A DNA stretch of 64,000 bases, taken from Algoriphagus halophilus (GTDB taxonomy: Bacteria > Bacteroidota > Bacteroidia > Cytophagales > Cyclobacteriaceae). Below, piece by piece: positions 58,269 to 62,766 of the stretch. The notes beneath the pieces are model-generated. The model ran no database searches. It was not told the origin of the DNA and saw only the letters and a list, made by a program, of their open reading frames with translations. The stretch is from contig NZ_FSRC01000001.1 of the NCBI RefSeq assembly GCF_900129785.1, forward strand, positions 1,674,001 through 1,738,000, written 5' to 3'. The position numbers and the translations under genes were made by a program. Positions within the stretch are counted from its first letter, which is position 1. Every line of letters starts with the position of its first letter.

Positions 58269-59522
58269 ATGAATAAAAGATCCTTTATTAAATCACTAGC
58301 CCTATTAGGCTTTAGTTCAAGTTCCCTTTTTAACTCAAAAGCGAAAGCTAAAAGCATTTATGAGCTAGATTTTAATGCGCCTGATATTTGGGATCAGATT
58401 CGTGCGGCCTATAAGTTGAAGCCAGACTATGTCAATTTAGAAAATGGATATTATTGTTTCTTACCAGAGGAAACACTGGAAAAGTATATTCAGCATTTGA
58501 GGGATGTAAATTACCATGCCTCTAGCTATATGAGAACTGTTCAATGGGATAATAAAGCTAAGTCTGCCGCCAAAGTTGCGGAATTAATCGGGGCTGGTCC
58601 TGAAGAGGTGGTTTTGACTAGGAATACTACAGAATCAATTGATTTGATTATTTCTGGATATCCCTGGAAAAAAGGAGACGAAGCCATTGTTTCCAATCAG
58701 GATTATGGCAGTTTGCTGAATATGTTTGAACTGGCCGAAAGAAGATACGGAATCAAAGTAAAACGTATCGACATTCCCATGCATCCTGAGAATGATGAAG
58801 AAATAGTAGATGTTTACGAAAAAGCCATTACTCCGAAAACGAAATTAATGATGGTGCCTCATATCGTGAATATCACAGGACATATTCTTCCTGTTCGAAA
58901 AATTGCGGATATGGCCCATAGCCATGGAGTCGAAATTATGCTGGACGGGGCGCATGCGGTAGGTCATTTTGATTTCAATATTTCAGAATTGAATTGTGAC
59001 TATTATGGCTCTAGCCTACATAAATGGCTAAGTGTACCCCTAGGTTGTGGGATGCTTTATGTTAAAAAAGGGAAAAGCCAGCAGATAAGACCTTTGCTTG
59101 CTCCTTACGAATTAGATCAAAAGACCCTCTTGAATTTAAATCATACAGGTACCCACGCAGTTTCTACTGATTTGGCGGTTCTTGATGCCATTGATTTTCA
59201 CAATAAGATGGGCAGCAAGCGAAAAGAAGAGCGCTTAAGGTATATTCAAAAATATTGGTCAGATCAGGTCAGGGATTTGCCAGGGGTCAATGTCAATACT
59301 CCAAAGGAACCCCAAAGGTCTTGTGGGATCGGGAATGTGGGCATAGATGCAGTGGAACCTGCAGATATGGCCAAGATTTTAATGGATAAATATAAGATTT
59401 ATACAGTGGGTATTAATGGTTCAGGTGTGCGTGGATGTAGAATATCCCCAAATGTGTACACTTCTGAAAATGACATGGATCAGTTTGTGAAAGCTATTAA
59501 AGAAATGTCAGGAAATGCATAA
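58269..59522 (+). CDS. Exported class V aminotransferase-fold protein
   Basis: A PLP enzyme resembling isopenicillin N epimerase and cysteine-desulfurase-like proteins. The ATG at 58269 is preferred over the TTG at 58236. It begins with a Tat/Sec-like signal (NKRSFIKSLALLGFSSSSLF). The PLP lysine is in SSLHKWLSVPLG near residue 260, and TRNTTESIDLIISG and MLDGAHAVGHFDF line the cofactor. A secreted PLP enzyme is unusual; its substrate could be an extracytoplasmic amino acid or cysteine derivative. No active Cys loop like that of NifS is visible. Confidence 0.85.
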   Translation: MNKRSFIKSLALLGFSSSSLFNSKAKAKSIYELDFNAPDIWDQIRAAYKLKPDYVNLENGYYCFLPEETLEKYIQHLRDVNYHASSYMRTVQWDNKAKSAAKVAELIGAGPEEVVLTRNTTESIDLIISGYPWKKGDEAIVSNQDYGSLLNMFELAERRYGIKVKRIDIPMHPENDEEIVDVYEKAITPKTKLMMVPHIVNITGHILPVRKIADMAHSHGVEIMLDGAHAVGHFDFNISELNCDYYGSSLHKWLSVPLGCGMLYVKKGKSQQIRPLLAPYELDQKTLLNLNHTGTHAVSTDLAVLDAIDFHNKMGSKRKEERLRYIQKYWSDQVRDLPGVNVNTPKEPQRSCGIGNVGIDAVEPADMAKILMDKYKIYTVGINGSGVRGCRISPNVYTSENDMDQFVKAIKEMSGNA

Positions 59523-59623
59523 CGGAATTTTATTTGGTTAAAACTCCCAAACAGGAATTATTGGTGGATATGAGTGTTATGGCAAAACTTTTGCAATGAA
59601 CCTTAAAAAAAATAAAGAATTAC

Positions 59624-59654
59624 TTGCAATTAGTTTTCAAAGAGTCCAAATTTG
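59624..59654 (+). promoter_or_regulatory. Candidate promoter of the arginine operon
   Basis: TTG (59624-59626) and CAAATTTG (59647-59654) fit the -33 and -7 boxes with a 20-base spacer and one mismatch (C for T in the -7 box). The leader ATG is 13 bases further, so transcription would start just before it. Pattern match only. Confidence 0.35.
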
Positions 59655-59667
59655 CTCCCCGAATCGA

Positions 59668-59787
59668 ATGAACACCCTTTCACACATAGCGCCAGCTTTC
59701 ATACATGCACTTCCTGTAGCAATAGTGAAGCCTGTTATGTTATTTTTCACTCCTTTGAGGAGGTATAGGTTCTTTTTTAGGGTTTAA
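59668..59787 (+). CDS. Possible arginine leader peptide ORF, 39 residues
   Basis: An ATG at 59668 begins MNTLSHIAPAFIHALPVAIV and the frame ends with TPLRRYRFFFRV and TAA. Four of the last ten codons before Val are AGG: Arg-Arg-Tyr-Arg-Phe-Phe-Phe-Arg. A hairpin and T-run follow at once (59779-59795), and an arginine-biosynthesis operon starts 108 bases downstream. This arrangement matches an attenuation leader in which ribosomes would stall when arginine is scarce. A shorter ORF may begin at the internal ATG 59737 and give 16 residues. The frame also extends back to an ATG at 59596, which I consider chance. Confidence 0.45.
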   Translation: MNTLSHIAPAFIHALPVAIVKPVMLFFTPLRRYRFFFRV

Positions 59788-59795
59788 CCCTTTTT
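59779..59795 (+). terminator. Hairpin and T-run after the arginine leader (candidate attenuator)
   Basis: AGGGT (59779-59783) pairs with ACCCT (59787-59791) around TTA, followed by TTTT. The stem is only 5 bp, so termination would be weak alone. The stem overlaps the last Arg codon and stop of the leader, so translation would control it. A second hairpin (CCGAA/TTCGG core, 59859-59874) lies just before the GNAT start and may also act. Confidence 0.4.
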
Positions 59796-59895
59796 GTTAC
59801 ACTTCGTTTTCCTACGTGGAGAACATATTCGCCTAATTCTTCCTGTTCTACTAATTTCCCCGAATCTTTTCGGGATATCCTTCATGCATTCAAAC

Positions 59896-60576
59896 ATGGA
59901 AAATATATCATTTAAAATCATAATGGCTGAGCCATACCACAAAAAATACGCAACCATCATCACTGATGAGATGGAAAATTCTGCGAAAGCTCGTGGTACA
60001 GGTATCGCTAAAAGAAGCCCAGCATACATCGAAACAAAAATGGATGAGGGGAAGGCAGTCATTGCGTTAACCCAAGATGGAACCTGGGCTGGATTCTGCT
60101 ATATAGAAGCTTGGGGGCATGGAAAATATGTTGCCAATTCAGGTCTAATTGTAGCTCCGGAATTTAGAAAATACGGACTTGCTAGAATGATCAAGCAAGA
60201 AATTTTCAAATTAAGTAGAAAGAAATATCCTGACTCCAAGATTTTCGGATTGACTACGGGTGCAGCAGTTATGAAAATCAACTCAGGTTTGGGCTATATT
60301 CCAGTTTCCTATGCCGATTTGACGGATGACAATGAATTTTGGAAAGGATGTCAAAGTTGTGTCAATTATGAGATTTTGATGAGTAAAAATCGTCAAAATT
60401 GCCTTTGTACCGCCATGTTGTATGATCCTGAAGCGAAAAAAAACCATGTAGAAGAACTCGCTTTAAGAAAGGATTTCAAGAAAGAGATCAAATTGTTTGA
60501 CCGATGGGTTAGATTAAAAAAATATGTGATGTTGAAAATCAATAAGTCCAAAGCTTCTGTGTTCAGCATCTTTTAA
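59896..60576 (+). CDS. GNAT acyltransferase in the arginine operon, likely ArgA substitute
   Basis: Probably acylates glutamate as the first step of arginine synthesis, with acetyl-CoA or, as in some Bacteroidota, succinyl-CoA. I start at ATG 59896 (MENISFKIIMAEP); the frame continues upstream to a TTG at 59794. Visible GNAT features are strand sequences KAVIALTQDGTWAGFCYI and NSGLIVAPEFRKYGLARMIKQE with the acyl-CoA loop of Arg-x-x-Gly-x-Ala type, then IFGLTTGAAVMKINSGLGY. The C-terminal 60 residues (LYDPEAKKNHVEELAL...) carry a CQSC and CLC pair of Cys, possibly a metal site. Its neighbours argG, argC and argD follow after 35 bp, which supports the role. Confidence 0.75.
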   Translation: MENISFKIIMAEPYHKKYATIITDEMENSAKARGTGIAKRSPAYIETKMDEGKAVIALTQDGTWAGFCYIEAWGHGKYVANSGLIVAPEFRKYGLARMIKQEIFKLSRKKYPDSKIFGLTTGAAVMKINSGLGYIPVSYADLTDDNEFWKGCQSCVNYEILMSKNRQNCLCTAMLYDPEAKKNHVEELALRKDFKKEIKLFDRWVRLKKYVMLKINKSKASVFSIF

Positions 60577-60611: not shown

Positions 60612-61805
60612 ATGAAAAAAATTGTTTTAGCCTACAGTGGTGGATTAGACACCACCTTTTGTGCCCTTCACCTATCCAAAGAGTTAGGGTATGAAGTTCA
60701 TGCCGTATTAGTTAATACAGGCGGATTTTCAACTGAAGAATTGAAAACTATTGAAGAAAGGGCTGGAAGTCTGGGCATTGCTTCTTTTAAGGTGTTGGAT
60801 GTGGTAGAAACGTATTACCAAGAAGTTATTAAGTATTTAATTTTTGGGAATGTCTTAAAAAATCAAACCTATCCCCTATCTGTATCGGCTGAAAGAATCC
60901 TTCAGGCTAAATCTTTAGCAGAATATGCCAAATCAATCGGTGCTAAATCTGTAGCACATGGATCCACTGGCGCCGGAAATGATCAGGTACGATTTGATAT
61001 GATCTTTCAAACCATTGTTCCGGATATTGAAATCATTACTCCTATCCGTGACCTGAAATTAAGTAGACAGGAAGAGATTGATTATCTGAAAATGCATGGC
61101 GTTTCCATGAACTTTGAAAAAGCAGCATATTCCATCAATAAAGGTATTTGGGGAACTTCAGTGGGAGGTAAAGAAACCTTAACCTCCTCAGATTATTTAC
61201 CTGAATCTGCTTGGCCAACACAAGTAACCGAAACAGAAGCCAAAGAAATTACTTTAACCTTTGAAAAAGGTGAATTAGTTGGTGTCAATAACAAGACTTA
61301 CGAGCATGCAACAGATGCCATTCTTGAGGTTCAGACATTGGCGGCTCCCTACGGAATCGGTAGAGATATTCACGTAGGTGATACCATTATCGGAATTAAA
61401 GGAAGAGTAGGATTTGAAGCAGCTGCTCCTTTGGTCATTATCAAAGGACACCAATTGTTAGAAAAGCACACGCTTACCAAGTGGCAAATGTTCTGGAAAA
61501 ACCAACAGGCGGAATTTTATGGAAATCACCTTCATGAAGGCCATTACCTGGATCCAGTGATGAGAAATTTGGAGGCATTCCTACAAAGCACGCAGGAATA
61601 TGTTTCAGGCACAGTTAGAGTATTACTTCAACCTTATCGATTTACCCTATTGGGAATTATCTCTGACCATGATTTGATGTCCAATAAATTTGGAAGCTAT
61701 GGGGAAATGAATAAAGGATATACTGCTGATGATGTAAAAGGATTTACCAGAATATTAGGGAATCAAACTGCCATCTTCCACAAGGTAAACGGAGAACATG
61801 AATAA
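60612..61805 (+). CDS. argG: Argininosuccinate synthase
   Basis: Joins citrulline and aspartate with ATP to give argininosuccinate. The P-loop type ATP motif is AYSGGLDTTF (about 7-16). Further family sequence is HGSTGAGNDQVRFD and SINKGIWGTSVGGKET. Length 397 is normal. It is co-transcribed with the GNAT gene and overlaps argC by 8 bases (61798-61805), so argC is likely to be translationally coupled. Confidence 0.95.
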   Translation: MKKIVLAYSGGLDTTFCALHLSKELGYEVHAVLVNTGGFSTEELKTIEERAGSLGIASFKVLDVVETYYQEVIKYLIFGNVLKNQTYPLSVSAERILQAKSLAEYAKSIGAKSVAHGSTGAGNDQVRFDMIFQTIVPDIEIITPIRDLKLSRQEEIDYLKMHGVSMNFEKAAYSINKGIWGTSVGGKETLTSSDYLPESAWPTQVTETEAKEITLTFEKGELVGVNNKTYEHATDAILEVQTLAAPYGIGRDIHVGDTIIGIKGRVGFEAAAPLVIIKGHQLLEKHTLTKWQMFWKNQQAEFYGNHLHEGHYLDPVMRNLEAFLQSTQEYVSGTVRVLLQPYRFTLLGIISDHDLMSNKFGSYGEMNKGYTADDVKGFTRILGNQTAIFHKVNGEHE

Positions 61806-62766
61806 GATAAAAACAGCCATCATAGGCGCTGCAGGATATACCGGAGGAGAATTGTTGCGTATCCTGGTAAATCATCCAGCCTGCGAATTGGTGTATGTGC
61901 ACAGTAATAGCCAAAAAGGAAAAAAAGTCACGGAAGTTCATCCTGATTTAATCGGGGATTGTGAATTGGTATTTACGGATGAAGTGGATACCTATGGAAT
62001 TCAAGCTGTATTTCTTGGTCTTCCCCATGGGCAGACCAAATCTTTCTTAGAGGAAAATCCTTTTCCTGAAGAAACGGTAATCATTGATTTATCTACTGAT
62101 TTCAGAGATGAGTCCAATGGCTTTATTTACGGTCTTCCTGAAGTAAATTCAGCTAACATCAAAAAGGCTAAAAGAATCGCAAATCCAGGTTGTTTTGCCA
62201 CAGGAATCCAATTGGCTTTGGCTCCTGCGATTGCTGCAGGCTGGGCTACTGATACGGTTCATATAACTGGTGTCACAGGTAGTACAGGTGCCGGAAAAAA
62301 ATTGGCTGAGACTTCCCACTTCAGCTACAGATCTTCCAATATGTCGGTGTACAAATTATTTACTCACCAGCACTTGAAAGAAATAAGGCAGACTTTTAAT
62401 CAACTGAATTCTGGTTTTGATGCAGATTTGCTTTTTGTTCCTTACCGTGGGAATTTTCCGAGAGGGATTTGGGTAACTACCTATTTACCTTTTAACGGAT
62501 CGGAAGAAGAAGCTAGAAAAGTGTACCAGGATTTTTATAAAAATGCTGCGTTTACGCATGTTTCCGATCAGGATATAGATATGAAACAAGCTGTAAATAC
62601 CAATAAGTGCATCATCTATGTTCAAAAAGAGGCGGGTCAATTAGTGATTTATTCTGCTATTGACAACTTGTTGAAGGGGGCTTCTGGTCAAGCAGTACAA
62701 AATTTCAACTTGGCTTTTGGATTAGATGAAAAAACAGGTTTAAACCTGAAAAGTATCGCTTTTTAA
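61798..62766 (+). CDS. argC: N-acetyl-gamma-glutamyl-phosphate reductase
   Basis: Reduces N-acyl-glutamyl phosphate to the semialdehyde with NADPH. The Rossmann motif is GAAGYTGGELLRIL (about 10-23), the active Cys is in NPGCFATGIQLAL near 131, and His in FVPYRGNFPRGIW-region completes the pocket. Length 322 is normal. The start overlaps the end of argG, and argD follows 47 bp downstream. Confidence 0.95.
   Translation: MNKIKTAIIGAAGYTGGELLRILVNHPACELVYVHSNSQKGKKVTEVHPDLIGDCELVFTDEVDTYGIQAVFLGLPHGQTKSFLEENPFPEETVIIDLSTDFRDESNGFIYGLPEVNSANIKKAKRIANPGCFATGIQLALAPAIAAGWATDTVHITGVTGSTGAGKKLAETSHFSYRSSNMSVYKLFTHQHLKEIRQTFNQLNSGFDADLLFVPYRGNFPRGIWVTTYLPFNGSEEEARKVYQDFYKNAAFTHVSDQDIDMKQAVNTNKCIIYVQKEAGQLVIYSAIDNLLKGASGQAVQNFNLAFGLDEKTGLNLKSIAF

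Follow-up and report, generated by a model that had tools for sequence, protein, structure and literature searches.

A conserved arginine-rich leader open reading frame that probably senses arginine supply precedes the arginine operon of Algoriphagus halophilus and its relatives

The window, the whole 64,000-nucleotide stretch of Algoriphagus halophilus DNA that was analysed, carries near its end the beginning of a gene row that reads GNAT-argG-argC-argD-argF'-argB-argE-like-argH. The GNAT gene is preceded by a short open reading frame (ORF) with an arginine-rich end and by three hairpins, H1 to H3. The features, with their positions in the window, are:

59624..59654, plus strand: promoter-like pair, TTG at 59624-59626 and CAAATTTG at 59647-59654, seen in the sequence and in columns that align in 30 loci of the genus
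59668..59787, plus strand: 39-codon leader ORF, MNTLSHIAPAFIHALPVAIVKPVMLFFTPLRRYRFFFRV, recognized by frame conservation, by a length that is the same in all 37 named loci and by pN/pS
59758..59781, plus strand: leader Arg codons 31, 32, 34 and 38, starting at 59758, 59761, 59767 and 59779, all AGG
59779..59791, plus strand: hairpin H1, AGGGTTTAACCCT, with Arg codon 38 and the stop codon inside it, recognized by paired cells in the alignment and by controls
59806..59824, plus strand: hairpin H2 with the apex CCUACGUGG, recognized by covariation and as one clear match in its own genome
59825..59858, plus strand: C-rich, G-poor, weakly structured stretch, a putative Rho loading region by composition and folding energy
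59859..59874, plus strand: hairpin H3, before the GNAT gene
59896..60576, plus strand: gene for a GNAT acetyltransferase, the first structural gene
60612..61805, plus strand: argG, argininosuccinate synthase
61798..62766, plus strand: argC, over the cut-off of TIGR01850
62814..63962, plus strand: gene for an argD-like aminotransferase, by family matches

An earlier note, made from the sequence alone, had placed the leader upstream of GNAT-argG-argC-argD, and this is what we find, with the addition that the row is longer and reaches argH. The GNAT protein scores just above the cut-off of PF00583 and has no NCBIfam family match at E values up to 1e-10; its start was taken as the ATG at 59896, the one that aligns among relatives, in a frame that is open upstream to a TTG at 59794. 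The argG product has Pfam domains well above cut-off, and the NCBIfam argG models stay below theirs. Beyond the window (on L270), matches follow to models for N-acetylornithine carbamoyltransferase (argF'-like), argB, an ArgE/DapE deacylase and argH, of which argB and argH alone exceed their curated cut-offs. As the arginine gene row extends past the window, one leader could serve most of the pathway. On the 3′ side of argH (L270:4581-6796) lie two genes that, judged by eye, resemble those for a SulP-type transporter and a carbonic anhydrase, perhaps for bicarbonate supply. The gene 5′ of the leader, at 58269-59519 on the same strand, is class-V aminotransferase-like (PF00266), and no functional tie to the operon was seen.

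The leader peptide ends in PLRRYRFFFRV followed by TAA, and the Arg-rich tail with AGG for each Arg that the earlier note had described was confirmed, with four AGG codons. Of the 736 Arg codons in 46 long ORFs of the window, 107 are AGG; at this rate at least four AGG in nine codons have a probability of about 1e-7, uncorrected for the choice of place. The promoter-like pair, too, is present as described and ends 13 bases 5′ of the leader ATG, and CAAATTTG matches seven of the eight positions of the promoter consensus TAnnTTTG. An in-frame ATG at 59596, upstream of this pair, would give an ORF of 63 amino acids; it was rejected as the leader because the conserved start is that of the 39-codon ORF.

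The sequence ACATA was observed at 59684-59688, near the leader start. All 38 distinct Algoriphagus sequences use ATA for Ile at codon 7 while the neighbouring codons vary, and 46 of 121 loci contain ACATA between +7 and +40 of the leader, not always in one and the same reading frame as judged by eye; it is possibly an element at the RNA level. A pairing between ACATA and the H2 loop, looked for by eye alone, was inconsistent and was given up.

Thirty-eight named Algoriphagus loci were available, and since one of them (L215) begins inside the GNAT gene, 37 have readable upstream DNA; among the named GNAT proteins of the genome collection, that of A. lutimaris comes closest, with 99% identity. 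In all 37 an ATG lies exactly 39 codons before the stop codon in H1, which is TGA in 21 and TAA in 16 cases. Within the 105 nucleotides before H1, the leader frame is interrupted by a stop in one of 49 loci of the family, compared with 49 and 40 for the other two frames. Among the 38 distinct sequences, codons 2-15 have a pN/pS of 0.89 and codons 16-27 one of 0.98, compared with 0.41 for codons 28-37, which lie outside H1; by this measure constraint at the amino acid level is confined to the Arg-rich tail. Arginine is found at codons 31, 32, 34 and 38 in 35, 28, 34 and 38 of the 38 sequences, respectively. The leader ORF is real and conserved, and the behaviour of its frame and its substitutions indicates that it is translated. 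The comparison with relatives that the earlier note had proposed as a check thus found both the frame and the Arg codons kept, along with a hairpin that covaries, namely H2.

Residues other than arginine are kept as well. Across the 38 distinct sequences F27 is retained (TTT in 22, TTC in 16), codon 28 specifies Ser or Thr, and P29 is present in 37 and uses all four of its codons, all with free third positions; simple sensing of Arg codons needs none of this, which counts against our main reading. Together with the low pN/pS of codons 28-37, it speaks for a ligand-dependent arrest peptide, in which free arginine or a related metabolite in the tunnel would arrest the ribosome near the stop codon when plentiful, as in the fungal arginine attenuator peptide, SpeFL and TnaC. 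A TP-x-R-like tail moreover recurs in four families (f1, f5, f11 and f18). Across families, however, only Arg is common to the tails, which read PRP, RRR, RIRI, IRR and others, as expected if the Arg codons and not one peptide matter. We consider an arrest peptide unlikely, with some room left for it by the F[ST]P motif of the genus.

The wider comparison covered 158 regions upstream of GNAT genes (134 from the own order, 24 from other orders), to which 47 further loci were added, bringing the other orders to 71. The counts of terminal Arg use the best ORF per locus, likewise in the dinucleotide shuffles, and they are not independent since the loci are kin. The highest Arg count in the last ten residues of short ATG-initiated ORFs averages 2.53 in the 158 regions versus 0.45 in shuffles, while the same measure gives 0.93 versus 0.46 for Pro and 1.18 versus 0.79 for Phe. 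At least three Arg in the last ten residues were found in 93 of the 158 regions and, for ATG starts in the other orders, in 35 of 71 loci as opposed to 2.8% in shuffles; with any start the latter figure rises to 40 of 71 loci (4.9% in shuffles), in 17 of 24 families. At the ends of short ORFs before GNAT-argG, no other residue comes near the enrichment of Arg, in the own order and in others alike. The earlier note had counted the Phe-richness of the segment against an arginine leader; over all loci this objection falls away, though the genus does show good conservation of F27 and of the FFF stretch. With any start and at least three Arg, no such leader was found in the seven other-order families f27, f31, f35, f40, f61, f72 and f85, nor, within the own order, in f9 (two loci), f17 (one) and f22 (one); f20 has it in one of five loci. 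These gaps count against our main reading. The codons themselves differ: genus leaders use AGG for 115 of 135 Arg codons, and some 20 leaders of other orders use CGA 24, CGC 11, CGT 9, AGG 9, AGA 8 and CGG 3 times. As Arg codons vary between lineages, it is the amino acid and not one codon that is kept.

In other families, hairpins with other pairs stand at the leader stop in the place of H1, for example GGCCCTAGGCC, AGGCGCTAGTCGCCT, GCCCTGAAAAGGGC and ACGCTGATAGCGT. A hairpin with at least three G-C pairs is found there in 98 of 156 loci, compared with 82 at the shifted place +30, which corresponds to H2, and 16-47 at the nine other shifted places; outside the genus the figures are 63 of 121 against 16-43 at shifted places and 54 at +30. 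Directly 3′ of H1 the window has TTTTTG, listed as terminator-like, so that the hairpin with a T-run overlapping the leader stop noted earlier does exist here. Its reading as an intrinsic terminator is not supported by the comparison. At least six T in the eight bases after H1 occur in two of 37 named Algoriphagus loci, i.e., the T-run is local. Terminator-like sites between leader and GNAT were found in eight of 121 loci, above the 3.1 expected from shuffles; the terminator, codon and composition counts cover only the 121 loci with at least two Arg in the last ten residues. An intrinsic terminator at H1 or H3 was rejected on these grounds, and it does not seem that a conserved terminator of this kind provides the output.

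The T-run of the window and the excess of terminator-like sites are what favours a classical attenuator, in which H1 or another hairpin would terminate transcription unless prevented by alternative pairing. Such a switch was searched for by comparing own with swapped duplex energies for 36 segment pairs in 50 loci, and no clear covarying long-range pairing emerged from this comparison, which is blind to constant pairing. The most favourable segment pair, ORF start with the GNAT start region, reached -2.3 SE, the largest difference (+3.7 SE) disfavoured a duplex between H3 and the GNAT start, and segments meant to pair alternatively differed little between own and swapped partners. Pairing of GCTATG with CATAGC or AATAGC, suggestive by eye in some f1 loci, likewise gave no clear signal in the duplex energies. 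A classical attenuator is thus very improbable, and since a search for a defining feature, an intrinsic terminator kept before the first structural gene, gave none, we do not class the leader as Yanofsky-type. What remains of the arginine attenuator put forward in the earlier note is a translated Arg-rich leader peptide with a covarying hairpin; the intrinsic terminator and the alternative-pairing switch are not supported.

The covarying hairpin is H2, which was absent from the earlier note. In the alignment of H1 and H2, 31 cells are changed on both sides compared with 5.6 in shuffles (0/500), all of them in H2. Alignment A1 comprises 40 of the 45 loci with H1 (five near-identical rows were left out, and L023 was missed by the pattern), and alignment A3 comprises 44 of 61 candidates. 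As all A3 rows were preselected for pairing, covariation in A3 is biased, and the conclusion rests on A1, whose rows were chosen by H1 alone. Model R1 finds one clear match in the own genome (E 8e-15, the next being 4.5). With a limit of E 1 it also matches 33 times among 88 further loci, and at least three of these matches (L065, L093 and L125) are in the wrong place or on the wrong strand. A model of H2 alone gives 28.6 bits at this locus and 18.1 bits for the next match in the genome. H2 was also considered as a general attenuator hairpin, an idea that was dropped because nine of the 11 other own-genome matches (E 0.46 to 9.95) lie inside open frames of at least 348 residues; the remaining two weak matches (L168 and L175) lie outside such frames, L175 with an open frame starting 59 bases downstream.

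A single clear H2 in the genome, with an apex that is kept over several families while the stem changes (one of the supporting alignments being biased by the choice of rows for pairing), could mean that the RNA itself is the sensor or binding site, with a protein or another factor as the reader of H2 and a secondary part for the ORF. The 7-nt loop of H2 resembles the anticodon loop of tRNA-Arg in most rows, and mimicry of tRNA-Arg was considered; this idea is weakened by 15 of 44 rows in which the middle anticodon position is U and not C. In the other orders H2 has eight matches at E up to 3 among 71 loci, far behind the 35 loci with Arg-rich ORFs. Between 59400 and 60700 Rfam yields two matches (E 3.6 and 4.1) far below their gathering scores, i.e., no family above threshold and no T-box or riboswitch. 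The strong coding signal of the ORF also argues against a purely RNA-based sensor, to which we give hardly any credence.

Downstream of the leader, H2 included, the C and G contents are 0.289 and 0.126 in 40 genus loci; the 26 intergenic regions of the window that served as controls have 0.162 and 0.147. Genus windows at H1, H2 and -30 (H3) are more structured than shuffles; at -50 from GNAT the mean folding energy is -0.4 kcal/mol. The window centred 30 bases before GNAT has a mean z of -2.09, with 81% of 36 genus loci below -1, and the second hairpin that the earlier note saw just before the first structural gene is this H3. After H2, at 59825-59840, many loci have, by eye, a pyrimidine-rich spacer of about eight bases, often followed by CGCC or ATAGC; H2 and spacer could be a hairpin-linked pause site for RNA polymerase.

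The repressor ArgR (PF01316) was detected in none of 58 relatives, the own genome included, and the operon was not assigned to an ArgR regulon; among positive controls the model matched in nine of 14 genomes, including E. coli and a Bacteroides. Class-wide, 13 of 246 genomes match, 11 of them over the cut-off, of which eight have a GNAT match and three do not. In seven of the eight (G347, G381, G409, G435, G459, G479 and G517; loci L216-L222) argR lies directly 5′ of GNAT on the same strand, and in none of them is argR preceded by an ORF with three or more Arg among its last ten residues. In the eighth, G455, the sole ArgR match is borderline (26.9 bits) and lies on a different contig, and an Arg-rich ORF stands upstream of GNAT (L250). 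From this gene order, argR and the leader look like alternatives at one operon position, in a set of seven genomes of which five belong to one family (f49). As no ArgR was found in the relatives, it is probably the leader that mainly adjusts the operon to arginine.

Taken together, translation of the ORF, conservation of Arg, H1 and H2, the place before arginine genes and the absence of a detectable ArgR support, on comparative grounds, a cis-acting arginine leader, and we think it quite likely that ribosome position on the translated 39-codon ORF relative to H1 sets operon expression. What the leader ribosome senses is most likely the supply of Arg-tRNA. Transcription would start just 5′ of the ORF, the ribosome would dwell at the four terminal Arg codons when charged Arg-tRNA is short, and its position relative to H1 would alter folding or loading of the downstream RNA and so switch the arginine operon on or off, stalling at low arginine leading to derepression. 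The output could be Rho-dependent termination on the C-rich stretch after H2, for which composition and low structure are suitable, or control of GNAT translation initiation through H3. More tentatively, and with rather less than even confidence, we suggest that in many ArgR-less Bacteroidota an Arg-codon leader, in the place where other members of the class have argR, controls the whole operon, and that Cytophagales add H2 (CCUAYGYGG apex), read by some factor or by RNA polymerase, which would make an undescribed attenuator without a terminator.

An arginine leader of this kind would explain the control of arginine synthesis in a large bacterial group where no ArgR was found. It would also show that one operon position can be taken either by a repressor gene or by a leader peptide, and the conserved H2 apex would point to a so far undescribed reader. 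Bacteroidota mostly lack Shine-Dalgarno sequences, and the leader would be a compact and testable case of upstream ORF (uORF) control without a conserved intrinsic terminator in such a phylum. The literature searched, mostly open-access papers, yielded no arginine leader peptide described from Bacteroidota.

The leader probably works like the known leader-peptide controls. In the trp, his, leu and ilv attenuators a short ORF ending in codons for the end product is followed by hairpins, and the Algoriphagus leader shares with them its place directly before a biosynthetic operon, the end-product codons at its end and the hairpins downstream; it differs in that no conserved intrinsic terminator or covarying switch was found and in that the amino acid is arginine. 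ArgR likewise serves arginine control and lies directly before GNAT in seven genomes of the class, but is a protein. Within the phylum, leader attenuation before amino acid operons was inferred from transcriptome data for Flavobacterium psychrophilum, where the section on 5′ cis-regulatory RNAs lists pheA and hisG, among other conserved elements, and no arginine genes (PMC9723704), and short ORFs reminiscent of leader peptides are mentioned for B. thetaiotaomicron (PMC7366714). The S. aureus uORF rbfL has a rare AGG Arg codon at which ribosomes pause at low arginine; unlike what we propose here, its target is a biofilm regulator, which is repressed through the covering of the ribosome-binding site, and low arginine lowers expression (PMC13009471). 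A further Arg-codon uORF is orf34 of the Salmonella speF leader: arginine is reported to be sensed by ribosome pausing at consecutive Arg codons, translation interferes with Rho-dependent termination, the response runs through RNA stability, and the target is ornithine decarboxylase rather than arginine synthesis (PMC6386406).
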